Part shown: piece after piece, positions 5,153-41,344 of the stretch
Layout of the letters: each line of letters opens with the position of its first letter
Numbering within the stretch: the first letter of the stretch is position 1
Assembly (NCBI RefSeq): GCF_030372105.1
Contig: NZ_JAUDBQ010000001.1
Location: 248,001-312,000 of the forward strand
From: Cellulomonas cellasea
GTDB lineage: Bacteria; Actinomycetota; Actinomycetes; Actinomycetales; Cellulomonadaceae
Length of the DNA: 64,000 nucleotides
Direction of reading: 5' to 3'
Program-made: the position numbers and the translations under genes
Notes under the pieces: generated by a model
The model's database searches: none
The model's input: only the letters and a program-made list of their open reading frames with translations
Told to the model about the DNA's origin: nothing

Positions 5153-5182
5153 CTGATCGGCTGGCACGGTCGGATCCTGAGC
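5153..5182 (-). promoter_or_regulatory. Sigma-28-like promoter of the cheB operon
   Basis: On the minus strand GCTCAG (5182-5177), a 16-nt spacer, then CCGATCAG (5160-5153). It matches the motif found before eight other operons in or beside the flagellar island. It sits 40 bp upstream of the cheB ATG, beside the hairpin that ends the receptor gene. Confidence 0.8.
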
Positions 5183-5183
5183 A

Positions 5184-5207
5184 GTGCGCCGCAGTGATCC
5201 GGCGCAC
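5184..5207 (-). terminator. Hairpin terminator after the first receptor gene
   Basis: Perfect 8-bp inverted repeat, GTGCGCCG (5184-5191) and CGGCGCAC (5200-5207), with an 8-nt loop. It lies 27 nt past the receptor stop and just upstream of the cheB promoter -35, so it separates the two transcripts. There is no clear T-tract, as is common in high-GC genomes. Confidence 0.55.
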
Positions 5208-5234
5208 GGCCGCTAGGCGTCAGGCCGCTAGGTG

Positions 5235-6905
5235 TCAGTAAGTGAAGGCGGCCACCCGGGAGCGCAGGTCCGAGGAGTTCGCCGCCAGCACGTCGACGGA
5301 GACCTCCATCTGCGTCACGACGCCCGACGTCTGCGCCGCCTCCCCCGCGACGGACGTGATCCGCTCGGCGATCTCGCCCGTGCCGGCGGCGGCCTCCTGC
5401 ACGCCGCGCGACATCTCGCCGGTGGTGGCGGTCTGCTCCTCCACCGCCAGGGCGATGGTGAGCTGGTAGTCGTTGATCTGGGCGATCACCGAGGAGATCT
5501 CCTCGATGGCGGCCACCGCCGAGGCGGTGTGCTCCTGGTTGGCCTGCACGCGGGCGGCGATATCGTCCGCGGCCCGGGCCGACTCCAACGCCAAGTCCTT
5601 GACCTCCCCCGCGACGACGGCGAACCCCCTGCCCGCCGCGCCCGCCCGGGCCGCCTCGATGGTCGCGTTGAGCGCCAACAGGTTGGTCTGCCGGGCGATG
5701 GCGGTGATGGACTTGACCACTGTGCCGATCTCGGCGGAGCTGGCGCCCAGCGCGTCGACGGTGACCGCCGCGGCCCGGGCGTGCTCGACGCCCTCGGTCG
5801 CGATCTTCGCCGCGAGGTTGGCGTTCTGCGCGATCTCCCGGATCGAGTCGCCGAGCTGCTCGGCGCCGGCCGCGACGGCCTGCACGTTGCGGCTGACCTG
5901 CTCCGCGGCCGCGGCCACCACGCCTGCCTGCGAGGACGTCTCATGCGACCCGGCGCTCACCTGCGCCGCGGCGCCCGCCAGGTCGTGCGCCGCCCCGGAG
6001 ACCTCGCCCGCTGTGGCGCTGACCCCCTCCAGCGTCGCGCGCACCGACGCCTGCGCCTGCGTCAGGGCCCTGGCCATGCGCCCCAGCTCGTCCTCCGAGC
6101 GCTGCGTGGCCACCACCGTGAAGTCGCCCCCCGCCATGGCCTCGAGCGCGTGGTGCACCTCTTGCACGGACCTGCGGATGGAGCGGGCGATGACCAGCCC
6201 GAGCGCCACCACGAGCACCAGCGCCGCCGACAGGCTCGCGGTGAGGATCAGCACGGCGCGCTGCGCCTTCGCGTCGGCGCTCTCGGCGACCGTGTAGAAG
6301 TAGGAGTTGGTCTCGTCCGCGACCCGTCCCAGAGCCGCGGTGTAGGTGTCCACCAGCGGCTGGCTGGAGTCCTCCACGAGCGTCGAGTAGTAGACGCGGT
6401 CGTCCTTGAGCGCGGTGGGGATGAGCACCCCGTCGCGCAGCTTGACCCACTTGGCGTAGGTCGTCTTGAACGTCTCCCACGCCTCGCCGCTGTCGAAGGC
6501 CTGCTCGTACTCGGCGATCGCCTCGCTCACCGCCGCGTCGTTCTCGGCCTGCTTGGCCAGCCAGGCGTCGGTCATGCGCTCGTTGTCGAAGGCGGCGATC
6601 TCCGCGGCGATCACCCGCGCGGCGAGCTGGCCCTGCTCGACCTCGCTGCGCTTGAAGACCGTCTCCTCCTGCAAGCGCGCGAGCTCCTGCGTGTCCGCGG
6701 CGATCGAGCGCATCGCCACGGCCGCATAGGCGCCGGCGGCGAGCGCCACGACCGCGAGCAGCAGGATCGCCGCGAGGATCTTGGTCCGCACCGACCGCGC
6801 CGCGAGCCAGCCGCCGGTGCGGGCCGGGCGGCTCGCACTGCCAGGGCGGCGGGCGCCCGCGGGCTCGCCACCGCGCCGTCGTGCCGCGACTCTCATGACC
6901 CGCAT
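5235..6905 (-). CDS. Methyl-accepting chemotaxis protein (first)
   Basis: 556 aa from ATG 6905; a second ATG at 6896 gives nearly the same protein, and in-frame sequence upstream of 6905 is non-coding. A basic N-terminus precedes TM1 (about 43-65), then an all-helical periplasmic-side sensor of about 160 residues (4HB-MCP-like), TM2 (about 226-250), HAMP (about 250-302) and a long coiled-coil signalling domain. The hairpin tip reads [19 protein letters not shown], the CheA/CheW contact region. There is no C-terminal CheR-binding pentapeptide; the protein ends RVAAFTY. Ligand unknown. It has its own sigma-28-like promoter (6939-6968) and a terminator (5184-5207), so it appears to be a single-gene transcript. 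A paralogue follows at 7013. Confidence 0.93.
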
Positions 6906-6938
6906 GCCCGCTCCTTCGCTGAACCTGGTGGTACGGGG

Positions 6939-6968
6939 CCCATCGGCGGCCGTGGGGCGTGCGTGAGA
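6939..6968 (-). promoter_or_regulatory. Sigma-28-like promoter of the first receptor gene
   Basis: Minus strand TCTCAC (6968-6963), 16-nt spacer, CCGATGGG (6946-6939). The -10 core CCGAT is intact, though the last bases differ from the CCGATSAG of the other sites. The predicted start is about 30 nt before the ATG at 6905. Confidence 0.65.
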
Positions 6969-6974
6969 CTCGGG

Positions 6975-6990
6975 CGGGGCGAAATCCCCG
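6975..6990 (-). terminator. Possible short terminator after the second receptor gene
   Basis: Inverted repeat CGGGG (6975-6979) and CCCCG (6986-6990) around a 6-nt AT-containing loop, 22 nt past the receptor stop. The stem is only 5 bp, so this is weak. Confidence 0.3.
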
Positions 6991-7012
6991 GGGCCAGGAG
7001 GTGAAACTCGCG

Positions 7013-8770
7013 CTAGTACCTGAACGTCTCCACCCGCGCGTGCAGATCGGCGGACATGCGGGCGAGCTCCTCCACGGCGGTTCCCATCTGGCTGACCACC
7101 ACGGCGTTGGACTCGGCCGCCGCCGCCACCCCGGCGATAGTCGAGCTGATCTCCTCCGAGCCGGCCGCGGCCTCGCCGACCCCGCGGGACATCTCGTTGG
7201 TGGTGGCCGTCTGCTCCTCCACCGCTGAGGCGATGGTGAGCTGGTAGTCGTTGATGTTGGCGATGACCTGCGCGATCTCCGCGATGGCGCCCACCGCTGA
7301 GGAGGTGTCCACCTGGATCGCCTCGACTCGGCGGGCGATGTCCTCGGTGGCCCGGGCCGTCTCGGAGGCGAGCTCCTTGACCTCGCCCGCCACCACCGCG
7401 AACCCCTTGCCGGCGGAGCCCGCCCGGGCGGCCTCGATCGTCGCGTTCAGCGCCAGGAGGTTCGTCTGCGCCGCGATCGAGGTGATGACCTTGACGACGT
7501 TGCCGATCTCCTGGCTCGATGTGCCGAGCTTCGCGACCTGCGCGTTGGTCCACTCCGCGACTCCCGTGGCGGCAGACGCCACCTTCGCCGCCTCGTTGGC
7601 GTTCTGCGCGATCTCCCGGATCGAGGAGCCCATCTGCTCCGAGCCCGACGCGACGGCCTGCACGTTGCGGTTGACCTGCGCGGAGGCCGACGCGACGACG
7701 CCGGCCCGCTCGGAGGTCTCCTGCGATCCGGCGGCCACCTGGACGGTCGCCGCTGACAGCTCCTCCGTCGCCGCGGCGACGGCCTGGGCGGTCCTGGCGA
7801 CCTCCGTGAGGGCGCCGCGCACGGACTCCTGGGCCACCCCCAGCGCGCTGGCCATCTTGCCGATCTCGTCACGGGAGGCCACGTGGCTGGTCACGGTGAA
7901 GTCGCCCTCGGCCATCGCCTCCAGGGACTTCTGCACGCTGGCCGCGGAGCGGCGGATCCAGCTCGCGGTGAGGCTGCCCAGCACGATCGAGAGCACGAGC
8001 CCGACGGCCAGGCTGGCCACCAGGATCAGCTTGGCGGTCTGCGCCTCGGCCTGGCCCTCGGCGGCCACGGCGTCGAAGTACTGGGTGATGTCGACGCGCA
8101 GGTCGGCGAGCGACGCCTCGAAGGCCATCGTGAGGGCCTGGCTGCGCGTCTCGAGCAGCAGGTTGTACCGGTCGAGGTTGCCCGACAGGCCCGCGGGCAC
8201 CAGCTCGGTGTCGCGCACCCCCAGCCACGTCGCGTAGTCGTCCTTGAACGACTGCCACACCTCGTACGTCCCGCCGCCTCCTGCCTCGAGGCCCTTCATC
8301 GCCGCGTTCATCGCGGCGTCGTTCTTGTCCTGCTCGCCCTTCAGGCTGGCCGACAGCGACACGTCGGCCGCGGCGATCTGCGCGACCAGGAGCTGCGCGC
8401 GCACCTCCGCCTCCGTCACCTGCGCCACCCGCGCGACGACCTCCCGCTGCACCGTCGCGAGCTCGGCCGACCGGTCCGCGACCTTCCCCAGCGAGATGAA
8501 GGCGTACACGCCCGTCCCCGTGGCGGCGACGCCCAGCATGAGGATGCAGCTGAGGATCTTGGTGCGCACCGACCGGTCGACGAACCACGACCGCAGGCCC
8601 CGGCGTGGCTTCCGGGCCTTCCGGGGCTTCCGGGGCGCGACGGGCTCCGGCGCGACCTCAGCGGTTGTCGGCTCCCCCTTGGCAGAGGCCGCCTCCGGCG
8701 TCTCCAGCGAGGCCGCCTCGGGCTCCTCAGCGGAGGGCAGGTCGGGGGAACGCTCAGAGGTGCGCATCAT
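7013..8770 (-). CDS. Methyl-accepting chemotaxis protein (second)
   Basis: 585 aa, ATG at 8770 (MMRTSERS; the next codon is also ATG). A long cytoplasmic N-tail (about 1-68) rich in Glu/Ala/Pro and then Lys/Arg precedes TM1 (about 70-93). A helical sensor follows to about 258, then TM2 (about 260-284), HAMP and the signalling domain with [19 protein letters not shown] at the tip. The signalling half is nearly the same as the first receptor but the sensor differs, so the two probably recognise different signals. No tethering pentapeptide is present (ends ARVETFRY). No motif-type promoter lies in the 43 bp before it, so it is probably transcribed by read-through from cheA-cheW. Ligand unknown. 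Confidence 0.93.
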
Positions 8771-8813
8771 CGGGCTCCTTCATGGAAAACAGATCTCAGA
8801 CCGGGCGTCCCTG

Positions 8814-9230
8814 TCAGGCCGCTGCCGCGGAGTCGACGTCGAGGACCAGAAGCAGCTCGGCGTCGAGCTTGTACGCGCCGAGGATCACGGCGCGGAGGCG
8901 CGCGTCGAGGGTGTCGGGCGGCGACTCGAAGGCCTCGGGGCCGACATCCACCACATCGCCGATCTCGTCGACGAGGAGGCTCACGGGCTCCCCGTCCACC
9001 TGCACCACGACCATCATCGGCTCGGCGCCCTCGGCCAACGGCTCCAAACCCAGCCGGGCGCGCAGGTCGACGGTGAGCACGACCTGCCCGCGCAGGTTCA
9101 CCAGCCCCGCCACGCCCACCGGGGCCAGCGGGACCCGAGTGCGGGTGTGCGCGCGCAGCGCCTCCTGCACGCGCGTCACGGCGACCCCGTACAGGCCGCC
9201 GCCCAGGGTGAAGGTCACGAACTGGCTCAT
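8814..9230 (-). CDS. cheW: Chemotaxis adaptor CheW
   Basis: 138 aa, ATG at 9230 overlapping the cheA stop (ATGA). It is a lone SH3-like CheW domain: MSQFVTFTLGGGLYGVAV, then VGVAGLVNLRGQVVLTVDLRARLG (the NLRG block), and VSLLVDEIGDVV with VILGAYKLDAELLLVLDVD at the end. CheW couples CheA to the receptors in polar arrays. Its direct coupling to cheA and position before a receptor gene are the usual arrangement. Length and motifs are standard. Confidence 0.95.
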   Translation of the reverse strand: MSQFVTFTLGGGLYGVAVTRVQEALRAHTRTRVPLAPVGVAGLVNLRGQVVLTVDLRARLGLEPLAEGAEPMMVVVQVDGEPVSLLVDEIGDVVDVGPEAFESPPDTLDARLRAVILGAYKLDAELLLVLDVDSAAAA

Positions 9231-11611
9231 CGGACGGCCCCCACGAGGTCACGGCTGGCATCGGCGTCGTAGAAGGACGGATCGGCGGCCAGGACGGCGC
9301 CCCGCACGTCCAACAGCTCGGTGACCCGGTCGCCCAGCACCGTCGAGCCCAGCAGGCCGGTGTCGACGATGTCGGAGTGCCGGCCAGCGTCGTCGTCGAC
9401 GATGTCGATGATCTCGTCCACCACGAGCCCGACGCTGCGGTCCTCATGCGTGTAGACGACCAGCAGCAGCTCGGCGGGATCCTCAGCGCCCGCGGCGCCA
9501 TGCGCCCGCAGCACCCGGTCGAGGCGGGCGAGCGGGAGGATCGTGTCGCGGTACTGGATGACCTCCCGGCCGCCGACCAGCTCGACCTGGTCGGCGGGCA
9601 CCAGCTCGAGCCGTGCGACGGACGCCAGCGGCATCGCGACCCGGCGGCCCCGCCCGATGCCGACCACCAGCACCTGCTCGGTGGCGGCCTCCTCCAGCTC
9701 CACGTCGAACTCGCGGGCCGCCCGGGCCAGCTCGCCCTCACTGGTCAGCGCGCGCCGGGCGATGGACTGCACATCCAGGATGAGCGCGACCCGCCCGTCG
9801 CCGAGCACCGTCGCCCCGGCGTACACGCCGATGGACTTCAGCCGCGCCGACAGCGGCTTGACCACGATCTCCTCAGTGTTGAGCACCCGGTCCACCAACA
9901 GCCCGAATCGCTGCTGGTCGGCCTGCACCACGGCGATGACCCCGCCCTGCTCGACTCCCGCCTCGGGGCCCGAGCCGACCTGCAGCACGCCCGCCAGGGA
10001 CACCAGCGGCAGCAGCTCCCCGCGCAGCCGGTAGACCGGCGCCGAGTGCACGTACTCGATGCCCCCACGCGAGCGCTGCGTGTCGAGCGCGACGAGCTCC
10101 AGCAGGCTGACCTGCGGCACCGCGTACAGGTCGCCCGCGCACTCGACCGTCAGCGCCGGCATGATCGCGAGCGTCAACGGGATGCCCAGCCGCCACACCG
10201 TGCCGCGCCCGACCGTCGAGTCGACGTCCACAGCCCCGCCGATGGCCTCGATCTTGGTGCGCACCACATCCATGCCCACACCGCGGCCGGAGACGTTCGT
10301 GACCGACTCCGCGGTGGAGAACCCCGCGTGGAACACCAGGTTGATGATCTCGCCCTGGCTCATCACCGCGAGCTGCTCGGCGGTCCGCAGGCCGCGCTCG
10401 AGCGCCTTGGCGGCGATCTTCTCCGGGTCGATGCCGCGGCCGTCGTCGGAGATCTCCACGACCACCTGCCCGCCCGCGTGGAACGCCCGCATCGACAGCA
10501 GCCCCTTGGGCCGCTTGCCGGCGGCGACCCGCTCGGCGGGCGACTCGATGCCATGGTCGACGGCGTTGCGCACCAGGTGCGTGAGCGGGTCCTTGACGGC
10601 CTCCAGCAGGCTGCGGTCGAGCTCGGTGTCGCCGCCCAGCATCTCGAGCTGCACCTCGCGGTCGCAGTGCGCCGCCAGGTCCCGGACGATGCGCGGCATC
10701 TTGGACCACACGTGCTCGATGGGCTGCATGCGGGTCTTCATGACCCCCTCCTGCAGCTCCCCGGCGATGAGGTTGAGGCGTTGCGCGGTGCGCGTCAGCT
10801 CGGCGTCCTCGCCGCCCGTCGCGAGCCGGGTGATCTGGTTGCGCGCGAGCACGAGCTCCCCGACCTGGCGCATCAGCGCGTCCAGCAGGTCCACGTCGAC
10901 GCGGATCGAGGCGTCGGCGACGCCCCGCGACGATGTGGAGTCGTCAGTGGCCGCCGGCGCGGCGGGAGCAGGGGCTGCGGGGGTGCGCGGCTCGCCGATG
11001 CGGCGCTGCTGCGGCACACCGAGGACGGATTCGGCGGCGGCCGCGGGCGCGGCGGGCTCCGGCGACGGCTCGGGGGTGGCGGACTCGGCGGGGGCAGCAG
11101 GCTCGGTGGCGGCGTCGGGCTCAGTGGGCGCGTCGGGCTCGGGGGCCTCGACAGCGGCGGCGGGCTCAGCAGGCTCTTCGACCTCGGTGGCGGCCGGCGG
11201 CGCGGGCTCGGTCGCGGCCGGGGCTCCGCCGTTCTGCAGCTCGGTGATCGCCATGATCACGTCGTCCACGGCGACGTCGCCCTCGGCGCCGTCCCGGTCG
11301 ATGGCCGCGAGGATCGCGCGCACGGTGTCCACCAGGCGCAGCAGCAGGTCAGTGGTCGGGCCGTCCATCTGGCGGTGGCCGTCGCGCAGCTCGACGAGCA
11401 GGTTCTCCCCCGCATGCGTCACCCGCTCGAGCTGGCTGAACGCGAGGAAGCCGCTGGTGCCCTTGATCGTGTGGACGGTGCGGAAGACGCTGCTGAGCAG
11501 CTCCCGCGAGCCCGGGGACCCCTCGAGCGCGACGAGGTCCTGGTCCAGCTGGTCCAGGTTCTCGTGGCTCTCGACGAGGAACTCGCGAACGATGTCGTCC
11601 ATGTCCTCCAC
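9227..11611 (-). CDS. cheA: Chemotaxis histidine kinase CheA
   Basis: 794 aa from GTG 11611; GGAGG 7 nt upstream supports this start over the ATG at 11602. P1 (HPt) covers about 1-115 with H47 in FRTVHTIKGTSGFL. Residues about 130-235 are a low-complexity Ala/Pro/Glu linker with no recognisable P2 (CheY/CheB-binding) domain. P3 dimerisation begins at about 240 (IRVDVDLLDALMRQVGELVLARNQI). P4 ATPase has N-box HLVRNAVDHGIESP, G1 ISDDGRGIDPEKI and G2 VSGRGVGMDVVR. The C-terminus holds two CheW-like domains (about 505-640 and 660-780), the second with LLVVYTHEDRSVGLVVDEI. It autophosphorylates on receptor signals and feeds both CheY proteins and CheB. Driven by the sigma-28-like promoter at 11663-11692 and followed by cheW. 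Confidence 0.95.
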   Translation of the reverse strand: MEDMDDIVREFLVESHENLDQLDQDLVALEGSPGSRELLSSVFRTVHTIKGTSGFLAFSQLERVTHAGENLLVELRDGHRQMDGPTTDLLLRLVDTVRAILAAIDRDGAEGDVAVDDVIMAITELQNGGAPAATEPAPPAATEVEEPAEPAAAVEAPEPDAPTEPDAATEPAAPAESATPEPSPEPAAPAAAAESVLGVPQQRRIGEPRTPAAPAPAAPAATDDSTSSRGVADASIRVDVDLLDALMRQVGELVLARNQITRLATGGEDAELTRTAQRLNLIAGELQEGVMKTRMQPIEHVWSKMPRIVRDLAAHCDREVQLEMLGGDTELDRSLLEAVKDPLTHLVRNAVDHGIESPAERVAAGKRPKGLLSMRAFHAGGQVVVEISDDGRGIDPEKIAAKALERGLRTAEQLAVMSQGEIINLVFHAGFSTAESVTNVSGRGVGMDVVRTKIEAIGGAVDVDSTVGRGTVWRLGIPLTLAIMPALTVECAGDLYAVPQVSLLELVALDTQRSRGGIEYVHSAPVYRLRGELLPLVSLAGVLQVGSGPEAGVEQGGVIAVVQADQQRFGLLVDRVLNTEEIVVKPLSARLKSIGVYAGATVLGDGRVALILDVQSIARRALTSEGELARAAREFDVELEEAATEQVLVVGIGRGRRVAMPLASVARLELVPADQVELVGGREVIQYRDTILPLARLDRVLRAHGAAGAEDPAELLLVVYTHEDRSVGLVVDEIIDIVDDDAGRHSDIVDTGLLGSTVLGDRVTELLDVRGAVLAADPSFYDADASRDLVGAVR

Positions 11612-11662: not shown

Positions 11663-11692
11663 CTGATCGACAGCGGAGGTGCGCAGTTGAGG
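11663..11692 (-). promoter_or_regulatory. Sigma-28-like promoter of cheA-cheW
   Basis: Minus strand CCTCAA (11692-11687), 16-nt spacer, TCGATCAG (11670-11663). It lies 52 bp before the cheA GTG, between that gene and the csrA-terminator hairpin. First -10 base is T instead of C. Confidence 0.7.
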
Positions 11693-12103: not shown

Positions 12104-13255
12104 TCAGTCCCATCGCGCCCCGGCGCCCAGGCGGTCGCTGAGCGCCGCCGCCCAGGCCACCCGGGTCGCGGGCAGCCCGTCGATCCACGCGACCGGGACG
12201 CCGAGGTCGAGCACCGTCCCCGGCTGCGTGGTCTCGAAGACGCCGCGCACGGCCAGCACGTCGATCCGGCGCCGGGCGCCCGTCTCGGCGAGCCAGCGCG
12301 CGCAGTCGCGCAGCTTGCTGTGCGCGTCCACCACACCCCACACCTGTTCCGGGGCGAAGGCCTCCAGCAGCTCGGCAGCCTCGCCTCGGGACGCGGCGTC
12401 GGGGCCGACGCCGAGGGCGACCACGGCGACCTGCCCGTCGGCGTCGGGGGCCTGCCCGCGCCAGCGCCGCGCGGCGACGACTGTGGCCACCCGCCGCCCG
12501 TGCCCCGCAGTCGCCTCCGCCCGGCCGGCGAGCACCACGCCGGAGGTGGGCTGGCCCAGCCGCTCGGCGAGCTGCATGGCCACTGCGAGCGCCTCGCCCG
12601 CAGGGCCCGCCACGACCACCACGGAGCCCGGCGTGCGGGGCAGGCGCGGCACCGCCGGCAGGGCCTCCAACACGGCGGACAGCAGCACGGGCCCGGTCCC
12701 CGCGACCCGGGCCAGGTAATGCTCGGGCACGCCCAGGTCGCGCAGCGCGTCGCGGCCCACGCCGCCGCTGGACGGCGTGGCCGTGGCGGGGACCAGCGGC
12801 TCGAAGGTGCGCGCGCCCGGCGCCGGCACCTCGACGTCGGCGATCACGGCGCCACCCGCCATCGCGCGGACCTGGTCCAGCACCGAGGCGAACGCCTCCT
12901 CCCCGGTGGACACGCGCGGCCCGGCGTCGGCGGACGACGTCGCCGTGACGCCCTGCCCGGCGAGGGCCGCGAGGTCCTGGCCCGGGGCGGCGTCGATCTC
13001 CGCCGCGTCCGCCGCGGCGAGCAACGCCTCCAGGCCCGACGGCGCGGGGTGCTGGCGCATCGCGCGGGGACGGGTGTGCGGCTCGTCCGCCACGTCCACC
13101 GTCAGCTCGTAGCGCTGGCGGGCGAAGAAGCCGGCGAACCCGCCGGACCGCACCCGCTCGGCGCGCACGATCCGCGCCGAGCTCCCGAACTCGGCGCGCA
13201 CATGCGCCATGAGCTCGGGCAGGTCGGTCCCCTCAAGCAGCAATCGTGTGGACAC
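12104..13255 (-). CDS. FlhF-like protein without a GTPase P-loop
   Basis: 383 aa, GTG at 13255, overlapping the end of flhA by 23 bp, the place where flhF normally sits. The N-terminus (LMAHVRAEFGSSARIVRAER, then GFAGFFARQRYELTV) matches the FlhF B-domain, and residues about 150-245 resemble an SRP-type N domain (LGVPEHYLARV). The G domain, however, is eroded: the P-loop position reads VVVVAGPAGEALAVAMQLAE without GKT/S, and where TKLDE is expected there is VRGVFETTQPGTVLDLG, followed by VPVAWIDGLPATRVAW in place of the usual xPIxYITNGQxVPxDI. It therefore probably does not bind GTP in the normal way. It may be a placement or export factor that lost catalysis. The FlhF relation is an inference from these blocks and from synteny. 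Confidence 0.6.
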   Translation of the reverse strand: MSTRLLLEGTDLPELMAHVRAEFGSSARIVRAERVRSGGFAGFFARQRYELTVDVADEPHTRPRAMRQHPAPSGLEALLAAADAAEIDAAPGQDLAALAGQGVTATSSADAGPRVSTGEEAFASVLDQVRAMAGGAVIADVEVPAPGARTFEPLVPATATPSSGGVGRDALRDLGVPEHYLARVAGTGPVLLSAVLEALPAVPRLPRTPGSVVVVAGPAGEALAVAMQLAERLGQPTSGVVLAGRAEATAGHGRRVATVVAARRWRGQAPDADGQVAVVALGVGPDAASRGEAAELLEAFAPEQVWGVVDAHSKLRDCARWLAETGARRRIDVLAVRGVFETTQPGTVLDLGVPVAWIDGLPATRVAWAAALSDRLGAGARWD

Positions 13256-19109: not shown

Positions 19110-19831
19110 CAGGCGAGGCCGTCCGAGCCCGCGACGATCTGCGTGATGCGGATGCCGTACTCCTCGTCGACGACGACGACCTCGCCGCGGGCGATCAGGC
19201 GGCCGTTGACCATCACGTCCGCCGGGCTCCCGGCGGTCCGGTCCAGCTCCAGCACGGCGCCCGGGGTGAGCTCGAGCACCTGGCGCACCGGCAGCCGGGT
19301 GCGGCCCAGCTCGGCGGTGAGGGTCATCTCCACGTCGTAGAGCACGTGCAGGCCCGCGCGCTGCGTCGGGACGCCCGCCTCGCGTGCGGGCACCGGCTCG
19401 GCGCGCACCCGCAGCGCGAACCAGGCGTGCGTGACGCCCTCGTGGGCCAGGGCGAACAGGTGGGCGTCGGAGGCCACGGCCTGGCTCGCGGGCGCGGTGC
19501 TCGCGGCGTCGAGCACCCCCGCGCCCAACTCGGCGCAGGCAGCCTCCAGCGCCGGGCGCAACGCGTCCGCCAGGGCGACGGGCGCCCCCGCGTCGGCGGC
19601 GGCGAGCAGTGCCTCGCGCACTGCCTCCTCGGCGATGATCACCAGGTCGGCGCTCACCGAGCCGACGAAGGACGCCACCACGGCGACGTCGTCCGGGCCC
19701 GGGCGCGCGCCGGCGGGCGCCGGTGACGCGGTGAGCGGCGCCGTCGACGGCAGCAGGCGGGCCACCGCCGCCGCCGCGTCGAGCGCGGCCGCCGTGAGCG
19801 ACCCGGCGGTGAGCGGGAGGGTGGGGTTCAT
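19109..19831 (-). CDS. fliN: Flagellar switch protein FliN, extended form
   Basis: 240 aa, ATG at 19831 (TGATG overlap with fliM). The C-terminal 75 residues are the SpoA/FliN domain: VLYDVEMTLTAELGRTRLPV, VLELTPGAVLELDR, VMVNGRLIARGEVVVVDEEYGIRIT. Residues about 15-150 have no counterpart in the short FliN of E. coli and look like an N-terminal domain of FliY type. At the place where FliY has a CheC-type ExxN there is LEAACAELG, so phosphatase activity is unlikely. It builds the C-ring base and binds CheY-P and FliH. Confidence 0.9.
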   Translation of the reverse strand: MNPTLPLTAGSLTAAALDAAAAVARLLPSTAPLTASPAPAGARPGPDDVAVVASFVGSVSADLVIIAEEAVREALLAAADAGAPVALADALRPALEAACAELGAGVLDAASTAPASQAVASDAHLFALAHEGVTHAWFALRVRAEPVPAREAGVPTQRAGLHVLYDVEMTLTAELGRTRLPVRQVLELTPGAVLELDRTAGSPADVMVNGRLIARGEVVVVDEEYGIRITQIVAGSDGLA

Positions 19832-20775
19832 CAGAGGTTCTCCTCGACGTCGACAACCATGCAGGCGAGCCGGGAACCGTTGTTCCCGGCGGCGGCTCGG
19901 GCGAGCACGACCCCGTCGACGACCACGTCCAGCGGACGCGACGAGGGGTGGTTCAGGGGCAGGACGTCGCCCACCGCCAGGCTCATGACCTGCGGGGGGC
20001 GGACGGACATCGGCGTGAACCGCACGGCCACATCCACGGGCACGTGCTGCACGGCCAGTTCCAGGTCCTCCTGGGCGATGGCCTGCGCGCGGCGGTCGTC
20101 GGCGGAGCGCGAGTCCGCGCCCTCCCCGCTCAGCAGGGCCGACAGCAGCAGGTCCGCGGGGAACATCAGCGTCGCGTGGTCCTCGCGCTGGCCGGAGCGC
20201 AACGTGAAGGATGCCTGTAGCACCGGGTCTGTGGCCCCGACGGCCTGCACGAACTGCGGGTTGTACTGCACCGACCGCACCGTCACGTGCAGTGGCAGCA
20301 GGCCCGCGAACGCGTAGCCGAGGTCGCCGAGCGCGAGCTGCAGCAGCTCGCGCACCAGGACCATCTCGATCTCGGTGAGCTCGCGGCCCTCCCGCTCGTC
20401 GCCCTTGCCGGCGCCGCCGAGCAGGTAGTCGACCCACACCATGAGCGCGCCCACGGGGATCTGCACGACAGCGGTCTGCCGCGACTGCTCGACGCCGCAC
20501 AGCACCATCGCCGTGGTGGGCGGCAGCGCCCGCACGTACTCGTCGTACGAGCAGAGCGTCAGCTCGTCGAAGGTGACCTGGGCGCTCACGCGCAGTCGCG
20601 CGCTGAGCTGGTTGCCCCACTGCCGGGCGAAGGTCTCGAACGCCATCTCCAGGACGCGGCCGTGCTCACGCGCCATGGTCATCGGCCGCCGGAAGTCGTA
20701 GGCCTCCGGCTCCTGCAGTCGAGCTCGCCGCGTCGCAGTGCGAGCGGAAGCGTGCACAGTCTCGTCAACGGTCAC
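19831..20775 (-). CDS. fliM: Flagellar motor switch protein FliM
   Basis: 314 aa, GTG at 20775. Residues about 24-210 are the FliM middle domain (YDFRRPMTMAREHGRVLEMAFETFARQ, then YVRALPPTTAMVLCGVE), and the C-terminal 70 residues are a SpoA domain (VDVAVRFTPMSVRPPQVMSLAVGDVLPL). The usual N-terminal CheY-binding motif LSQEEIDALL is not seen; the N-terminus is MTVDETVHASARTATRRARL, so CheY-P may bind elsewhere, for example on FliN. No Shine-Dalgarno sequence precedes the GTG; the sigma-28-like -10 ends only 6 nt before it, predicting a leaderless mRNA. First gene of the fliM-csrA operon. Confidence 0.94.
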   Translation of the reverse strand: MTVDETVHASARTATRRARLQEPEAYDFRRPMTMAREHGRVLEMAFETFARQWGNQLSARLRVSAQVTFDELTLCSYDEYVRALPPTTAMVLCGVEQSRQTAVVQIPVGALMVWVDYLLGGAGKGDEREGRELTEIEMVLVRELLQLALGDLGYAFAGLLPLHVTVRSVQYNPQFVQAVGATDPVLQASFTLRSGQREDHATLMFPADLLLSALLSGEGADSRSADDRRAQAIAQEDLELAVQHVPVDVAVRFTPMSVRPPQVMSLAVGDVLPLNHPSSRPLDVVVDGVVLARAAAGNNGSRLACMVVDVEENL

Positions 20776-20781
20776 GCACGA

Positions 20782-20811
20782 CTCATCGGCGGACAGCGCG
20801 CATTCATGAGC
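20782..20811 (-). promoter_or_regulatory. Sigma-28-like promoter of the fliM operon
   Basis: Minus strand GCTCAT (20811-20806), 16-nt spacer, CCGATGAG (20789-20782). The fliM GTG begins 6 nt downstream, so transcription would start at or within a base or two of the start codon. Confidence 0.75.
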
Positions 20812-23452: not shown

Positions 23453-23482
23453 CTGATCGGCCGCTCTTCGGCGGGTATGAGG
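23453..23482 (-). promoter_or_regulatory. Sigma-28-like promoter of flbD-motA-motB-fliL
   Basis: Minus strand CCTCAT (23482-23477), 16-nt spacer, CCGATCAG (23460-23453). It sits between the flgE terminator and flbD. Confidence 0.8.
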
Positions 23483-33372: not shown

Positions 33373-33402
33373 CTCATCGGAGGCGGCTGCGCAGACCTGA
33401 GG
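33373..33402 (-). promoter_or_regulatory. Sigma-28-like promoter of the flgB-flgE operon
   Basis: Minus strand CCTCAG (33402-33397), 16-nt spacer, CCGATGAG (33380-33373). Both hexamer and octamer are identical to those of fliC. It is the main recognisable element in the 209-bp gap 33295-33503. Confidence 0.85.
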
Positions 33403-33503: not shown

Positions 33504-33839
33504 TCAGCCCTCGACGTCGAGGTACACGGGCGCCTGGGAGCCGTGCGTGCGCAGCACGGAGACCACGTCGAGGTGGCGTCGGCTCATCGCCGCCGCCTCG
33601 GCCACCCGCTGCGCCGCGGAGGCCTGCGCGTCGAGGAGCCGCCGCGCGCGGGGCGCCAGCTCGGCTGGCAGCGGGCCCAGGCCGGGCTCGGGGCGCCAGG
33701 GCGCGGGGTCCACGGCGGCAAGCCCGTCGGCGGCCAGCGCCTGCGCCTGCTCGACGTGGGCCTCGAGCGCGTCCAGGGCGGCGGGCCAGCCCGTGGGCGC
33801 GTCAGCCGGCGCGTCGGCGGCGAGCACGTCAGCCGACAC
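33504..33839 (-). CDS. Small protein in the fliT position
   Basis: 111 aa, GTG at 33839, overlapping the fliS stop by 11 bp. Mostly helical and rich in Ala; WPAALDALEAHVEQAQALAADGLAAVDP and RARRLLDAQASAAQRVAEAAAMSRRHLDVVSVL suggest two helices of a FliT-type chaperone, and the place after fliD-fliS is where fliT sits. FliT binds FliD. Sequence similarity is too weak for certainty. Confidence 0.55.
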   Translation of the reverse strand: MSADVLAADAPADAPTGWPAALDALEAHVEQAQALAADGLAAVDPAPWRPEPGLGPLPAELAPRARRLLDAQASAAQRVAEAAAMSRRHLDVVSVLRTHGSQAPVYLDVEG

Positions 33840-35795: not shown

Positions 35796-36620
35796 TCACC
35801 GCAGGAGCGAGAGCACGCCCTGGGGGATCTGGTTGGCCTGCGCGAGCATCGCCGTGCCGGCCTGCGACAGGATCTGCGCGCGGGTGAAGGAGACCATCTC
35901 CGACGCCATGTCCGTGTCGCGGATGCGGGACTCCGACGCGGACAGGTTCTCGACCGCGACGTTGACGTTCTTGATGGTGTGCTCGAGGCGGTTCTGCATC
36001 GCACCGAGGTTGGCACGCGTGGTGGAGATCGCGCCGATCGCCGTGTCGACGGCGGCGAGCGACGTCTGGGCCGTGGCGTTGTCCGTGACCTTGAGCGCGG
36101 CGATGGTGCCGACAGTGGTCTTGACGTTGTCGAGGGTCACCACGATGGTGCTGTTGGCGTCGCCGTCAGCGCCGACCTGGAACGTCAGGCTGGCCTTGGA
36201 GCCGTCGAGCAGCTTGGTGCCGTTGAAGTTCGTCGAGTCCGTGATGCGCGTGAGCTCGGCGCCGAGGCTCTTGATCTCGGTCTCGATGTTGTCACGCGCC
36301 GCGACGCTGTTCGAGTCGTTACCACCCTGGACCGTGAGGTCACGCACACGCTGCAGGATCGCGTGGACCTCGGTCAGCGCGCCTTCAGCCGTCTGGACGA
36401 CCGAGATGCCGTCCTGGGCGTTGCGGGCGGCGACCTTGAGGCCACCGACCTGCGAGCGCAGGCCCTCGGAGATCGCGAGGCCGGCAGCGTCGTCCGCCGC
36501 GCGGTTGATGCGGAAGCCCGAGGAGAGCTTCTCGAGCGACTTGCTCAGGTCGTTCTGCGTGTTGGACAGGTTGCGGTACGAGTTGACCGCGGCGATGTTC
36601 TGGTTGATCGACAGACCCAT
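35796..36620 (-). CDS. fliC: Flagellin FliC
   Basis: 274 aa, ATG at 36620, with AAGGAGG 9 nt upstream. N-terminal D0/D1: NQNIAAVNSYRNLSNTQNDLSKSLEKLSSGFRINRAADDAAGLAISEGLRSQV. C-terminal: IRDTDMASEMVSFTRAQILSQAGTAMLAQANQIPQGVLSLLR. The central D2/D3 region is short (about 80 residues), so this is a compact flagellin. It is the main filament subunit and the only flagellin gene in the window. It has its own sigma-28-like promoter and a leader with candidate CsrA sites, pointing to tight late control. Confidence 0.97.
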   Translation of the reverse strand: MGLSINQNIAAVNSYRNLSNTQNDLSKSLEKLSSGFRINRAADDAAGLAISEGLRSQVGGLKVAARNAQDGISVVQTAEGALTEVHAILQRVRDLTVQGGNDSNSVAARDNIETEIKSLGAELTRITDSTNFNGTKLLDGSKASLTFQVGADGDANSTIVVTLDNVKTTVGTIAALKVTDNATAQTSLAAVDTAIGAISTTRANLGAMQNRLEHTIKNVNVAVENLSASESRIRDTDMASEMVSFTRAQILSQAGTAMLAQANQIPQGVLSLLR

Positions 36621-36673: not shown

Positions 36674-36703
36674 CTCATCGGGCCCCTTGCCCGGCATCTG
36701 AGG
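36674..36703 (-). promoter_or_regulatory. Sigma-28-like promoter of fliC
   Basis: Minus strand CCTCAG (36703-36698), 16-nt spacer, CCGATGAG (36681-36674). The predicted RNA would start at the foot of the leader hairpin, about 50 nt before the ATG. Confidence 0.85.
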
Positions 36704-36741: not shown

Positions 36742-37632
36742 TCAGGCGCTGGTGAGCCGCGTGGGGGCGCCGATGGGCCGGCCGTCGTCCGCTCCGCGCC
36801 GGGGCGTGGGCACGGCGCCGGCGTCGGCCATCGCCGCGCGGTTCGCGGAGGTGGCCGCCCGGGCCGCCACTGCCGCGAAGTAGGTCTGGCGGCGGCGCTC
36901 GGCGACGCCCTGGGGGCGCTCGGCGGTGGTGACGAGTTCAGGGTCGAGGCTCGCGTTGAGCCCGTCGCGCAGCAAGCTCAGGGCCTCGGTGCGGAGCTGG
37001 CTGATGCGGGACTGGGTGACGCCCATCTCGGCGGCGAGCTCGGCGACTGGGCGGTCGTGGAAGAACAGCCCCTTGACGACCTGGCGCAACCGGTCGGGCA
37101 GGGTCTCGACGCCAGCGCGCAGGTAGCGCAGGCGCTCGCCGATCAGCAGCGCGTCCTCCGGTCCGGGGCTCTCGTCGCTGAGCAGGTCGGCGACGGGGTG
37201 CACTGTGGCGTCGATGCTGAGCACGCGGCGCTCGGCGTCCTGGCGCGCCTGGTCGACGGCTGTGACGTCGGTGCCGAGCGCTTGCGCGAGCTCCTCACGC
37301 GAGGGCGCGCGTCCGAGCGCGCCGGTCAGGCGGTCGCTCGTGGCGGCCAGCTCCCGTGCGCGATGACGGGCGCCGCGGGTGGCCCAGTCCATGGAGCGCA
37401 GTTCGTCGAGCAGCGCGCCACGGATGCGCAGGGCGGCGTACCGCGCGAACGGGACTCCGGTCGACGGGTCGTAGGCGCGGGCTGCCAACACCAGGGCGAG
37501 GCTCCCGGCGGAGGCGAGCTCGTCGCGCGTCACGGTCGGGGGCACCCGCATCATGACCTCGCTGACGTGGTACCCGACCAAGGCCAGGTTCGCGACCACG
37601 AGATCGTCGGTGGGGTGTCCGGAGGCTGTCAC
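36742..37632 (-). CDS. fliA: Flagellar sigma factor FliA (sigma-28 family)
   Basis: 296 aa, GTG at 37632. Region 2: ANLALVGYHVSEVMMRVPPTV, ELASAGSLALVLAARAYDPSTGVPFARYAALRIRGALLDELRSMDWATRGARHRARE, the FliA/WhiG pattern. Region 3: LTGALGRAPSREELAQALG. Region 4 with helix-turn-helix: LPDRLRQVVKGLFFHDRPVAELAAEMGVTQSRISQLRTEALSLL. About 55 C-terminal residues beyond region 4 (ending GAPTRLTSA) are an unusual tail. It likely reads the CTCA-N17-CGAT promoters of this cluster. No flgM anti-sigma gene is in the window. Sits between fliC and the divergent flgN operon. Confidence 0.93.
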   Translation of the reverse strand: MTASGHPTDDLVVANLALVGYHVSEVMMRVPPTVTRDELASAGSLALVLAARAYDPSTGVPFARYAALRIRGALLDELRSMDWATRGARHRARELAATSDRLTGALGRAPSREELAQALGTDVTAVDQARQDAERRVLSIDATVHPVADLLSDESPGPEDALLIGERLRYLRAGVETLPDRLRQVVKGLFFHDRPVAELAAEMGVTQSRISQLRTEALSLLRDGLNASLDPELVTTAERPQGVAERRRQTYFAAVAARAATSANRAAMADAGAVPTPRRGADDGRPIGAPTRLTSA

Positions 37633-37780: not shown

Positions 37781-37796
37781 TGTGACGAAGGTCACA
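37781..37796. promoter_or_regulatory. CRP/GlxR-type palindrome upstream of fliA
   Basis: TGTGACGAAGGTCACA: perfect TGTGA-N6-TCACA half-sites, the consensus of CRP/GlxR-family cAMP receptors. It lies 149 bp upstream of the fliA GTG and 133 bp before the flgN promoter -35, so fliA is the likelier target. Confidence 0.6.
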
Positions 37797-37928: not shown

Positions 37929-37958
37929 GGTCATGACCGGGGCGCCGCATCCGATCAG
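37929..37958 (+). promoter_or_regulatory. Sigma-28-like promoter of flgN-flgK-flgL-fliW
   Basis: GGTCAT (37929-37934), 16-nt spacer, CCGATCAG (37951-37958). One base of the -35 (G for C) differs from the rest. About 50 nt before the flgN GTG. Confidence 0.7.
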
Positions 37959-38014
37959 GAAGCCAGAACCCCGGCGCGCACCGCGCCGACCAACGAGCGA
38001 GAGGCGGTGGCCAG

Positions 38015-38497
38015 GTGGTCCTCAGCCGGCTGTCCGACGTGCTGTGGCAAGAGCGGCACCTGCTCGAGCTGCTGCTGTTCAAGCTGGAGGAGGAGCAGCT
38101 GATCCTCACCAGCGGGCGGACCCGCTGGCTCGGACACGCCACCCGCGAGGTCGAGGCCGTGCTCGAGCAGATCCGCGACGCCGAGCTGGGCCGCTCCATG
38201 GAGGCCGAGGCCGCCGCGCAGCTGCTCGGCGTGGACGCCGACACCAGCCTGCTCACGCTGTCACAGCACGCGCCGAGCCCCTGGGACGAGCTGCTGCGGG
38301 CGCACCGCGACGCCTTCGTCGCGCTCACCTCGGAGATCTCCCAACTGGCCAACGGCAACCGCGAGCTGCTCGCCATGTCCCACCGCGCCACCCAGGAGAC
38401 CCTGATGTCCCTGCAGGAGACGGTGCAGACCTACGCGCCCCACGGCCTGACGGCCGACACCGACCGCAGCGCCCAGCTGCTCGACCAGTCCTTCTGA
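38015..38497 (+). CDS. flgN: FlgN-type chaperone for hook-associated proteins
   Basis: 160 aa, GTG at 38015. Mostly helical: LSRLSDVLWQERHLLELLLFKLEEEQLILTSGRTRWL, LEQIRDAELGRSMEAEAAAQLLG, LANGNRELLAMSHRATQETLMSLQETVQTYAP. This is the FlgN pattern, and the gene precedes flgK and flgL, whose products FlgN escorts to the export gate. Translation of flgK begins 10 bp downstream. A well-supported call by context; sequence alone is moderate. Confidence 0.85.
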   Translation: MVLSRLSDVLWQERHLLELLLFKLEEEQLILTSGRTRWLGHATREVEAVLEQIRDAELGRSMEAEAAAQLLGVDADTSLLTLSQHAPSPWDELLRAHRDAFVALTSEISQLANGNRELLAMSHRATQETLMSLQETVQTYAPHGLTADTDRSAQLLDQSF

Positions 38498-38507
38498 GAG
38501 GCCACCC

Positions 38508-39935
38508 GTGAGCACCTTCTCCGGACTCGGCACCGCGCTGAGCTCGCTGATCGCCCAACGCCAGGCCCTCGAGGTCTCCGGTCAGAACATCGCCAACGCC
38601 AACACCATCGGCTACACGCGCCAGCGCGCCGCGCTCTCGTCGCTGCCGGCCGCGCAGCTCCCCTCGATGTTCTCCGTCTCGAACGGCCCCGGCTACGGCA
38701 CCGCCGTCACCGACATCGCGCGGCTGAACGACGTGTTCCTCGACGCGCAGGTCCGCACCACCACGGCCAGCAGCTCCTTCCTCGCGGCCCGGGCCTCGGC
38801 GTCCAAGCTGCTCGAGACGAACATCGGCGAGCCCGCGGCCACCGGGCTCGCGACCCAGCTCACCGGCCTGTGGGCCGCGTTCGGGGATGTCGCCAACAGC
38901 CCCAACAAGGACTCCTCGCGCGCGGTGCTCCTGGAGACCGCCGCCGCGGTGGCCGACCGCATCGGATCGCTCTACACCGCCGCGAGCACGCAGTGGTCAC
39001 AGGCCCGCACGCAGACGGGCGCGCTGGTCGAGCAAGCCAACACGGCCGCCTCGAACATCGCCGACCTCAACAAGCGCATCCTCGCCATGGAGAACTCCGG
39101 CTCCTCCGCGAACGAGCTCAAGGACCAGCGCGACCTGCTCGTCACCGAGCTGTCCGGCCTGGTGGGCGCGACCACGCGCACCCAGGAGAACGGCCAGATC
39201 GACGTGCTCGTCGGCGGGAACATGCTGGTGGACGGCTCCAAGTCGCGCCAGCTCGCGGTGACTGGCGCGGCCGGCTTCAGCGATGCGACGGGCGGCGCCG
39301 AGGTCAAGGTCGTCTGGGCCTCGGACCCGTCGCGCTCAGCCGGGCTGGAGGGCGGCCAGGTCGCCGGGCTCCTGTCGGTCCTGGCCCCGCCCGCCGCTGG
39401 TGGCACGGGCGGCCTGCTCACCGAGGCCGCGGCCTCCTACGACAAGCTGGCGACACAGCTCGCGACGCAGGTCAACACGCTGCACCGGCAGGCCCTCACC
39501 ATCGACGGCACGCAAGGTGGCGACTTCTTCGACTTCACGGCCGGGCAGCCCGCCGCGCTCGGCCTCAAGGTGGCGTTCGACGACCCGGCCCTGGTGGCCG
39601 TGGCCGCGCCCGGCGCCGGCGCCCTCGACGGCTCCTTCGCCCGTCAGATCGCCCTGCTCGGAACCTCCGTCGACGGCCCCGACGCCACGTGGAGCGCGTT
39701 CGTCGTGCAACTCGGCGTGAGCACCGCCAGCGCGACCTCACGGGCCACCGCCGCCGAGGCGACCCGTGCCTCCGCATCGGCGCAGCAGATCGCCCAGACC
39801 AGCGTCGACACCGACGAGGAGACGGTCAACATGCTCGCCTACCAGCGCGCCTACGAGGGCGCGGCGCGGGTGCTCAGCGCCATCGACGAGATGCTCGACA
39901 CCCTGATCAACAGAACCGGAATCGTGGGGCGGTAG
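38508..39935 (+). CDS. flgK: Hook-associated protein FlgK (HAP1)
   Basis: 475 aa, GTG at 38508 with GAGAGG upstream. Start STFSGLGTALSSLIAQRQALEVSGQNIANANTIGYTRQRAAL; then LNDVFLDAQVRTTTASSSFLAARASASKLLETNIGEP; end QIAQTSVDTDEETVNMLAYQRAYEGAARVLSAIDEMLDTLINRTGIVGR. All are FlgK marks. It forms the hook-filament junction with FlgL. Confidence 0.96.
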   Translation: MSTFSGLGTALSSLIAQRQALEVSGQNIANANTIGYTRQRAALSSLPAAQLPSMFSVSNGPGYGTAVTDIARLNDVFLDAQVRTTTASSSFLAARASASKLLETNIGEPAATGLATQLTGLWAAFGDVANSPNKDSSRAVLLETAAAVADRIGSLYTAASTQWSQARTQTGALVEQANTAASNIADLNKRILAMENSGSSANELKDQRDLLVTELSGLVGATTRTQENGQIDVLVGGNMLVDGSKSRQLAVTGAAGFSDATGGAEVKVVWASDPSRSAGLEGGQVAGLLSVLAPPAAGGTGGLLTEAAASYDKLATQLATQVNTLHRQALTIDGTQGGDFFDFTAGQPAALGLKVAFDDPALVAVAAPGAGALDGSFARQIALLGTSVDGPDATWSAFVVQLGVSTASATSRATAAEATRASASAQQIAQTSVDTDEETVNMLAYQRAYEGAARVLSAIDEMLDTLINRTGIVGR

Positions 39936-39937
39936 AG

Positions 39938-40843
39938 ATGATCAACCGTGTGACGCACCAGTCCGTGCAGCGCTCGACGCTGGCGAACCTGCAGGTCAAC
40001 CTCTCGACCATGGCCGATTTGCAGGCCAAGATGTCGAGCGGCAAGAAGATCAACGTGCCGTCCGACGACCCGGCCGGCGCCTCCGACATGCTGCGGCTGC
40101 GCGGCGAGCAGCGCGCGCAGGCCCAGTACCAGCGCAACGCCGATGACGGCGTCGCGTGGCTCACCACCATCGACACCTCGCTGCAGACCACCTCCACGAC
40201 CCTGCGCCGGGTGCGCGACCTGGTTCTCCAGAGCGGCTCCGGCGCGGCGAGCGTGCCCGCCCGCGAGGCGATCGCCGTGGAGATCGAGGGTCTGCGCGAC
40301 GAGCTGCTGCAGCAGGCCAACACGACGTACCTGGGACGCAACGTCTTCGCCGGCACCTCCAACGCGGGTGTCGCGTTCACCGTGGACAACACCACCGACC
40401 CGGCCACCTACACCTTCACCGGCGCCGCGAACGCCACCGTCGAGCGTCAAGTCGCCGACGCCACCACCGTGCGGGTCGACGCGGACGGCGCGAAGGTCTA
40501 CGGCGACGGCGCCCAGTCCGTGTTCGCGCTGCTCGACACCATCGCGGCCACCCTGCGGACCCCGGACGGCGACGCCACGGCGCAACTCGGCGCCATCGAC
40601 GCCCGGTTCGAGACGGTGCTCACCGAGCTGGCCGGCGTCGGCGCCCGGCAGACCCGGGTGGTCAACGCGCAGACCAGCCTGGTCGACGCGGCGCTGACCA
40701 CCAAGACGCAGCTCTCGGCGATCGAGGACATCGACCTGGCCGAGATCATCCTGGAGCTGGGCATGCAGGAGGTCGCGTACCAGGGCGCCCTCGGCGCCGC
40801 GGCGAAGGTGCTCCAACCGAGCCTGATGGACTACCTCCGATGA
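39938..40843 (+). CDS. flgL: Hook-associated protein FlgL (HAP3)
   Basis: 301 aa, ATG at 39938, 2 bp after flgK. Start MINRVTHQSVQRSTLANLQVNLSTMADLQAKMSSGKKINVPSDDP is typical FlgL; GTSNAGVAFTVDNTTDPATYTF and the C-terminal IEDIDLAEIILELGMQEVAYQGALGAAAKVLQPSLMDYLR complete it. Short central domain. Junction protein between hook and filament. Its stop overlaps the fliW ATG (ATGA). Confidence 0.95.
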   Translation: MINRVTHQSVQRSTLANLQVNLSTMADLQAKMSSGKKINVPSDDPAGASDMLRLRGEQRAQAQYQRNADDGVAWLTTIDTSLQTTSTTLRRVRDLVLQSGSGAASVPAREAIAVEIEGLRDELLQQANTTYLGRNVFAGTSNAGVAFTVDNTTDPATYTFTGAANATVERQVADATTVRVDADGAKVYGDGAQSVFALLDTIAATLRTPDGDATAQLGAIDARFETVLTELAGVGARQTRVVNAQTSLVDAALTTKTQLSAIEDIDLAEIILELGMQEVAYQGALGAAAKVLQPSLMDYLR

Positions 40844-41280
40844 GCGCCCTGCCGGTGGACGGCCTGCCCGTGGACGCCCTGCCCCCGTCGGGCCGCCGCA
40901 TGCCCCCCGCGCTGCGCCTGTGCTCGCCGCTGCCCGGCCTGCCCGGCCACGACACGTTCACGATGGACCCCCTGGACGACGACGGCACCCTGTACGCGAT
41001 GCGCAGCACCCCGGCGGACCGCCCGCCGGTGCGGCTGTTCGTCGTCCCCCCGCGCGTGTTCTTCCCGGACTACGCGCCGAGCGTCGACGCCGAAGCCCAC
41101 ACGCTCGTGGGCGGGCGGGCCGAGGACCACCTGCTCCTGGTCGTGGTGCACCCGGCGGAGCGCGACACCCCGCCCACCGCGAACCTGCTGGCCCCGCTCG
41201 TGATCGACCCGGCCACCGGCTCGGCCATGCAGACGGTGCTCGGCGACGGCGACTGGCCCCTGCACGCCCCGTTGGGCTGA
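40840..41280 (+). CDS. fliW: Flagellar assembly factor FliW
   Basis: 146 aa, ATG at 40840. After a variable Pro-rich N-terminus (about 1-25), the FliW core: LRLCSPLPGLPGHDTFTMDPLDDDGTLYAMRS, VRLFVVPPRVFFPDYAPSVDAEAHTLVG, LLLVVVHPAERDTPPTANLLAPLVIDPATGSAMQTVL. FliW binds flagellin and CsrA in turn and so frees fliC translation after the hook is made. csrA is at 11774 and fliC at 35796. It is the final gene of flgN-flgK-flgL-fliW. Confidence 0.92.
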   Translation: MSALPVDGLPVDALPPSGRRMPPALRLCSPLPGLPGHDTFTMDPLDDDGTLYAMRSTPADRPPVRLFVVPPRVFFPDYAPSVDAEAHTLVGGRAEDHLLLVVVHPAERDTPPTANLLAPLVIDPATGSAMQTVLGDGDWPLHAPLG

Positions 41281-41314
41281 GACCGGGCCGGCAGCGAACT
41301 CCGCAAGCGTTTTC

Positions 41315-41344
41315 ACTCATGTGCGCGGGCTGGGCGTCGATCAG
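41315..41344 (+). promoter_or_regulatory. Sigma-28-like promoter of the EAL-HDOD gene
   Basis: ACTCAT (41315-41320), 16-nt spacer, TCGATCAG (41337-41344). The ATG of the next gene is 47 nt downstream. It places this gene in the flagellar regulon. Confidence 0.7.

Follow-up and report, generated by a model that had tools for sequence, protein, structure and literature searches.

A candidate FliA promoter class with a CTCA −35 element precedes flagellar and chemotaxis gene groups in Cellulomonas cellasea

The question raised by this locus is whether the flagellar and chemotaxis genes of Cellulomonas cellasea are served by one class of promoters and, if so, which sigma factor reads it. The window, that is, the whole analyzed stretch of 64,000 nucleotides (nt) (contig NZ_JAUDBQ010000001.1, positions 248,001–312,000), belongs to a high-GC genome of 3.8 Mb and contains a single motility cluster spanning approximately 3 to 42.6 kb. 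The first-pass annotation proposed nine matching two-part motifs at the operon heads of this cluster, with 16 nt between the parts. A letter check of the window verified the motif at all nine places with the quoted letters, and the spacer to the GCCGA-type −10 element was 16 nt in 9/9 sites. The results support the assignment of these sites to one promoter class heading the flagellar and chemotaxis gene groups, with the FliA of the same cluster as the best candidate sigma factor. The sites are as follows (ranks refer to the independent matrix described below; SD, Shine-Dalgarno sequence):

5153..5182, minus strand: candidate promoter of cheB-cheR; exact motif; rank 2; ATG 39 nt after the −10 element, SD match 5/6.
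6939..6968, minus strand: candidate promoter of mcp1 (chemoreceptor); exact motif; rank 7; ATG 33 nt after the −10 element.
11663..11692, minus strand: candidate promoter of cheA-cheW-mcp2; exact motif; rank 6.
20782..20811, minus strand: candidate promoter of fliM-fliP-fliQ-fliR-flhB-flhA-csrA; exact motif; rank 1; probably a single unit, judging from gene order.
23453..23482, minus strand: candidate promoter of flbD(swrD)-motA-motB-fliL; exact motif; rank 4.
33373..33402, minus strand: candidate promoter of flgB...flgE (rod, MS ring, export, hook); exact motif; rank 5; a probable single unit by gene order.
36674..36703, minus strand: candidate promoter of fliC-fliD-fliS; exact motif; rank 3.
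37929..37958, plus strand: candidate promoter of flgN-flgK-fliW (GTCA variant); one mismatch; rank 13.
41315..41344, plus strand: candidate promoter of the EAL-HDOD gene; exact motif; rank 9; likely ATG 46 nt after the −10 element.

The pattern CTCA-N17-YCGATSRG was matched exactly by 8/9 sites, and the flgN site deviates from it with GTCA. With one mismatch allowed, the window contained 12 matches vs. 3.7 expected, and the maximum among 100 shuffles was 10. A search with free spacing (CTCA-N10..24-YCGATSRG) gave 106 matches in the own genome. N17 accounts for 21 of these, and the other 14 spacings share the remaining 85, or about 6 each; every exact match in the window region (8/8) has N17, the list being complete for contig 1. 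The density of the N17 pattern was 8 matches in the 64 kb window vs. 13 in the remaining 3.74 Mb. Equal numbers of hits in coding DNA, which the first-pass annotation had named as a counter-argument, were thus not seen in terms of density, though the short pattern does have a background. The −10 element reads GCCGAT in four sites, another NCCGAT in three and GTCGAT in two. As was claimed initially, none of the window sites (0/9) ends in the AA of the classical sigma-28 −10 element GCCGATAA. The classical −35 element TAAA was also found in 0/9 window sites, and no TAAA-N15-GCCGATAA within one mismatch was found in the own genome.

The sites were said to lie in intergenic DNA, 7 to about 80 bp from a first gene. 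The 7-bp values rest on upstream start codons, while at eight sites the SD-like start follows the −10 element by 33 to 78 nt; for the fliM site, no SD-like start was found within the 140 bases examined. The mcp1 site is located inside an over-long mechanical open reading frame (ORF, 5235–7553), yet it falls between the mcp2 stop and the likely start of mcp1.

In order to rank the sites independently, a matrix was trained on other genomes, with no window site included. The best CTNA/CCGA pair was taken from each upstream region of fliC, flgB, flgN, flbD and cheA, and 150 distinct sites were kept from 185 regions. The matrix covers 71 genome labels, or 70 once known duplicates are merged, and regions that lacked a site or yielded a duplicate were left out. 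The nine sites rank 1–7, 9 and 13 among all window positions, and ranks 8, 10, 11 and 12 belong to other places. In six block-shuffled windows the matrix maxima were 11.2–16.7. The top seven sites therefore stand clear, and the EAL-HDOD and flgN sites, whose scores (15.6 and 12.5, respectively) fall inside that range, need positional support. For the flgN site such support is available, as a comparable site precedes flgN in relatives. The matrix also revealed an A-rich stretch 4–5 bases ahead of CTCA, and the sixth −10 base among relatives is mostly T (0.79; A, 0.15).

Comparison with related genomes, which the first-pass annotation had suggested as a check, confirmed the motif. Sites were counted at a score of at least 12, with the tested genome and its known duplicates excluded from the matrix; regions shorter than 120–150 bases, weak matches and matches starting far from the N-terminus were left out. 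A site was found before fliC in 53/63 genomes, before flgN in 48/59, before flgB in 22/28, before cheA in 4/4 and before flbD in 2/2 of the genomes tested. The background was 1.9% of 1776 random 200-bp windows, which were drawn from the tested loci themselves, real sites included, before duplicate genome labels were merged (G088/N139, G143/N144, G087/N145 and G134/N114); the gene-by-gene counts were taken after merging. Operon-internal genes were near background (fliG 0/26, fliW 0/53, csrA 0/34, flgK 3/69, fliD 2/45, fliS 3/49), and fliF was somewhat over it (3/29). The starts used for cheB, fliM, fliE and fliA were approximate, which blurs their upstream distances. Genera with CTCA sites include Nocardioides, Cellulomonas, Sanguibacter, Georgenia, Kineococcus, Quadrisphaera, Actinosynnema, Planomonospora and Dactylosporangium. 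In Actinoplanes and its kin, CTCA-N15-17-NYCGAW was found 75–115 bp before fliC at 17 of the 21 flagellin loci among the matches listed (partial and C-terminal matches left out) vs. 51/4200 random windows, which were likewise drawn from the tested loci with their real sites. Thus, the predicted promoter motif recurs across the class. Beyond the class, the flagellated genomes of the phylum (50 examined) gave a mixed picture: some have CTCA before fliC, some a TAAA-like element and many no clear site.

The −35 element was described initially as non-classic, CTCA instead of TAAA. It proved less so when the register was considered. The classical sigma-28 spacer is N15. In the alignment of CTCA-N16-GCCGAT with TAAA-N15-GCCGATAA, the T of CTCA falls on letter 1 of TAAA and its A on letter 3. 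Because of this register, the −35 element can be read as (C)TCAN in place of TAAA, that is, a change of the second base with an added C and not an unrelated element. Relatives carry CTCA, CTTA and CTAA at this place. Compared with the classical promoter of FliA, SigD and WhiG, the extended −10 GCCGAT core and the −35 T and third-position A are retained here, whereas the second −35 base is C, the element is preceded by a C in most sites, and neither its fourth A nor the AA at the end of the −10 element is retained. The classical consensus hexamers TAAA and GCCGATAA are given in a published source (PMC8325347).

The sigma factor of the cluster is encoded next to fliC:

36742..37632, minus strand: FliA-type sigma factor; Pfam sigma-70 regions 2, 3 and 4; nearest solved structure E. 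coli FliA (6pmi, E 6.7e-29).

The three sigma-70 regions and the nearest structure support the placement of this protein in the sigma-28 family. A canonical sigma-28 paralogue of the WhiG type was found in the own genome as well (contig 12, G000:C12:24739-25419). Since this second, canonical paralogue exists, the initial claim of one sigma factor, likely FliA, needed argument. In the tree, the FliA type is separate from WhiG, and the window FliA sits with Cellulomonas sequences. Of the 149 genomes examined in the order, 54 have the FliA type, and the identical 54 have flagellin. The WhiG type was found in 42/54 flagellated and in 11/95 remaining genomes, and none was found in 12/54 flagellated ones (thresholds: FliA type, E 1e-30; flagellin, E 1e-15; WhiG type, rows of at least 236 bits). 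In addition, CTCA sites are present in flagellates in which WhiG was not detected (G017, G108, G137 and G129, the last being a fragmented draft). FliA is therefore favored as the reader of the sites, because its distribution, unlike that of WhiG, matches flagellin exactly and CTCA persists where no WhiG was found. FliA is a paralogue of the WhiG of Streptomyces and other actinobacteria, and a WhiG-type gene is present in the same genome, but FliA forms a separate tree group and the presence of WhiG does not track flagella.

The fliA gene itself is an exception. The window fliA lacks the motif, the best matrix score in the fliA direction of the fliA-flgN region being 1.8, and among 117 other genomes a site with a score of at least 12 was found before fliA in one. 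In G144, a CTCA...GCCGAA pair points to fliA with a score of 8.9. Because fliA is without the motif, at least two tiers, namely fliA and then the rest, have to be assumed. The initial idea that all the gene groups could run together is supported as regards the single promoter class at their heads, but does not extend to fliA. A palindrome of the cAMP receptor protein (CRP) type was found in the divergent fliA-flgN region:

37781..37796, plus strand: CRP-type palindrome TGTGA-N6-TCACA, perfect, by pattern match.

With up to one mismatch allowed, no CRP-type palindrome other than this sequence, TGTGACGAAGGTCACA, was found in the window (0.58 expected). A perfect palindrome (10/10) was found 154–190 bp before fliA in 11/135 genome labels, including the own genome, vs. 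6/1460 random windows from these loci; note that G088 and N139 are one genome under two labels. Genera with this palindrome include Cellulomonas, Jonesia, Georgenia and Actinotalea. Perfect copies being limited to 11/135 labels, a class-wide CRP site was rejected. For the own genome, a CRP/GlxR-type input at the palindrome is predicted.

All these results, read from sequence, make it very probable that the nine sites serve as promoters for the cluster's own FliA and that fliA itself is fed otherwise, probably by a CRP-type input. RNA polymerase with FliA would read the CTCA −35 element, the 16-nt spacer and the extended −10 element GCCGATSAG, and transcription would start a few bases downstream of the −10 element. 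The rod, MS ring, export, switch, stator, hook, filament and chemotaxis groups would be switched on from one promoter type. The fliA gene, without such a promoter, would be the entry point and would probably be fed by a cAMP-receptor-type regulator at the fliA-flgN palindrome.

Several observations weigh against this explanation. The window FliA scores 155.2 bits with TIGR02479, which is under the curated cut-off of 189.6 bits, while FliA types of G023, G078 and G108 exceed it; the WhiG-type sigma factor encoded by the own genome scores 265.4 bits. Three genomes with only the canonical type at E 1e-40 (G585, G704 and G859) carry CTCA-N16/17-GCCGAT before fliC, and the sites of G585 and G704 end in the classical AA. 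The cheB site is poorly conserved (1/11 genomes), and degenerate sites were found in two close relatives (G060, CTTT before fliC and CTAC before flgB; G144, CTTC before fliC). Moreover, the information content of the matrix is partly imposed, since its training sites were chosen by the CTNA/CCGA anchor. The score of the WhiG-type paralogue and the three genomes with WhiG-type sigma factors alone suggest that this paralogue might read the nine promoters, by itself or alongside FliA, and the TAAA-N15-GCCGATAA search did not reveal an obvious classical WhiG regulon in the own genome that would occupy it otherwise. We consider this unlikely, given that the FliA type, and not WhiG, matches flagellin exactly and that CTCA sites persist in G017, G108 and G137.

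A more serious, although still less probable, alternative is that the promoter class is correct and expression is nevertheless staged via extra housekeeping promoters, CsrA-FliW, cyclic di-GMP (c-di-GMP) or an anti-sigma factor unlike FlgM. The cluster contains csrA and fliW, the EAL-HDOD gene is among the putative targets, and fliA is served by a promoter of another kind. FlgM was sought by one Pfam profile (PF04316) and was not detected in the own genome nor in 24/27 others (found in 3/28); in the controls for this profile (E. coli, B. subtilis, Thermotoga or a like set) the cut-off was exceeded in 3/14. Two publications (PMC2587704, PMC4255298) also report no FlgM in the flagellated actinobacteria considered there. 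Against staging, early, middle and late gene groups are preceded by sites of one motif, and a review likewise describes no hierarchy for A. missouriensis. It is highly improbable that a DNA-binding regulator uses the sites as operators, or that they are chance or coding matches, and not sigma promoters. The short pattern does occur 13 times elsewhere in the genome, with 10 matches within predicted ORFs and 3 outside them, but the window sites are all oriented toward the gene, the spacing between their two parts is fixed, their extended −10 GCCGAT is that of classical sigma-28 promoters, and they are conserved at similar distances in dozens of genomes. Chance matches were rejected by the spacing, the matrix ranking and the conservation. 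FliA remains the preferred reader of the nine sites.

The recognition helix was then compared with the third letter of CTNA. The helix is QSRISQLRTEA in the window FliA and ESRISQMHTAA in the WhiG-type paralogue. A −35 call was available for 86 genome labels. Of the 75 labels whose helix has Arg at position 5, 72 have C as the third letter, the exceptions being G004, N079 and N124, each with mixed sites; where Ala stands at this position, the third letter is A or T in 11/11 labels. The 29 sites of HSA-type genomes comprise CTAA (17), CTTA (10), ATTA (1) and GTTA (1), with no CTCA, and in the non-HSA genomes (own genome excluded) CTCA was found in 125/163 sites. The loci L323, L325-L328, L330, L331, L334 and L357-L360 have a FliA helix of the HSA/HAA type (PSA in G069), and the sites detected among them have CTAA or CTTA as the −35 element. 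In the tree, the Ala/HSA rows form one clade of 11 and one long-branch row, and only two independent pairs are located on supported branches. The change of the helix and the −35 element is therefore about one evolutionary event and does not prove a code. A simple helix code is further weakened by G585, G704 and G859, which have C at the third −35 letter despite a canonical helix. WhiG was not found in 8/8 HSA-type genomes of the order set, and insulation from WhiG as the cause of the changed −35 element is only suggestive; the three flagellates that keep CTCA with no WhiG found (G017, G108 and G137) weigh against it. As a tentative joint picture, two sigma-28 paralogues may be present in many flagellated actinobacteria, and FliA may have been re-specified from the TAAA of WhiG to CTCA via a changed helix (ESR...R[AT]E), with one clade at CTAA/CTTA (HSA), which would keep motility apart from the WhiG regulon. 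FliA would then form the only level of control over the remaining flagellar and chemotaxis genes, with a cAMP-CRP input to fliA in Cellulomonas and close relatives.

A similar promoter class has a known precedent. In Actinoplanes missouriensis, 11 flagellar transcription starts reportedly share CTCA(N15-17)GCCGAA, and one sigma factor is said to have been proposed for all the flagellar genes (Jang et al. 2016, J Bacteriol 198:2219). The promoter class and the idea of one sigma factor are therefore not new, and a review repeats the part on the absence of hierarchy for the A. missouriensis flagellar genes. The CTCA of that class is present in 8/9 window sites, and its spacer of 15–17 nt in 9/9. 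Both systems have the CCGA core and one promoter before many flagellar genes, and the motif also precedes fliC of the Actinoplanes relatives named. They differ in that the −10 element here is mostly CCGATSAG vs. the GCCGAA reported for A. missouriensis, the spacer is 16 in all nine sites, the starts are predicted, chemotaxis and EAL-HDOD genes are included, and a CRP-type site is located upstream of fliA. In the late-class FliA regulon of E. coli, a sigma factor of the same family also reads filament and chemotaxis genes, with an FlgM checkpoint; in contrast, the basal-body, export and switch groups share the promoter here, and FlgM was not detected. According to PMC8325347, flagella and pili genes of Actinoplanes are directed by WhiG-like sigma factors. 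A literature search for the motif or its extension met none in the portions of the sources covered. What is added here is the class-wide recurrence of the motif, its register, the WhiG-type paralogue, the coincidence of FliA and flagellin, the exception of fliA, the palindrome and the CTAA/CTTA clade.

The results favor the FliA-type paralogue as the sigma factor of motility, and fliA stands out as the control point. The motif and the matrix can serve to find FliA targets in flagellated actinobacteria, and the natural CTCA/CTTA/CTAA series with two types of recognition helix offers a test bed for the reading of the −35 element by sigma factors.

The minus strand of the cluster carries cheR, cheB, two chemoreceptor genes, cheW, cheA, csrA, flhA, flhB, fliR, fliQ, fliP and fliM, then fliL, motB, motA, flbD, flgE, fliK, a gene for an NlpC/P60 protein, fliJ, fliI and fliH, and then fliG, fliF, fliE, flgB, fliS, fliD, fliC and fliA. 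The plus strand carries flgN, flgK, fliW and the EAL-HDOD gene. Genes next to the candidate promoters include:

9227..11611, minus strand: cheA; Pfam Hpt, H-kinase_dim, HATPase_c, CheW.
19831..20775, minus strand: fliM switch protein; Pfam FliM; true start probably at about 20.69 kb, judging from the Pfam match.
35796..36620, minus strand: fliC flagellin; Pfam Flagellin_N, Flagellin_C.
38015..38497, plus strand: flgN chaperone; Pfam FlgN.
41349..42614, plus strand: EAL-HDOD signaling protein; Pfam HDOD (5.1e-16); EAL weak, under its cut-off.

Two minus-strand ORFs inside the flagellar gene groups, 12104–13255 (after flhA) and 33504–33839 (between fliS and flgB), had no Pfam match.

Outside the window, additional candidate targets come from the exact pattern. 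A genome-wide regulon defined by the short pattern alone was rejected. The pattern is not diagnostic beyond the motility cluster, because 10/13 outside matches sit in ORFs and only one of the three others precedes a chemoreceptor gene. This one (L010, G000:C5 near 14.2 kb) is an exact CTCA motif before an ORF (L010:1-1515, minus strand) with Pfam sCache_2 and MCPsignal domains. The other two exact motifs outside ORFs (L013, G000:C7 near 18.2 kb, and L011, G000:C5 near 78.2 kb) have no correctly oriented predicted gene near them, and they are possibly small RNA promoters or chance matches.

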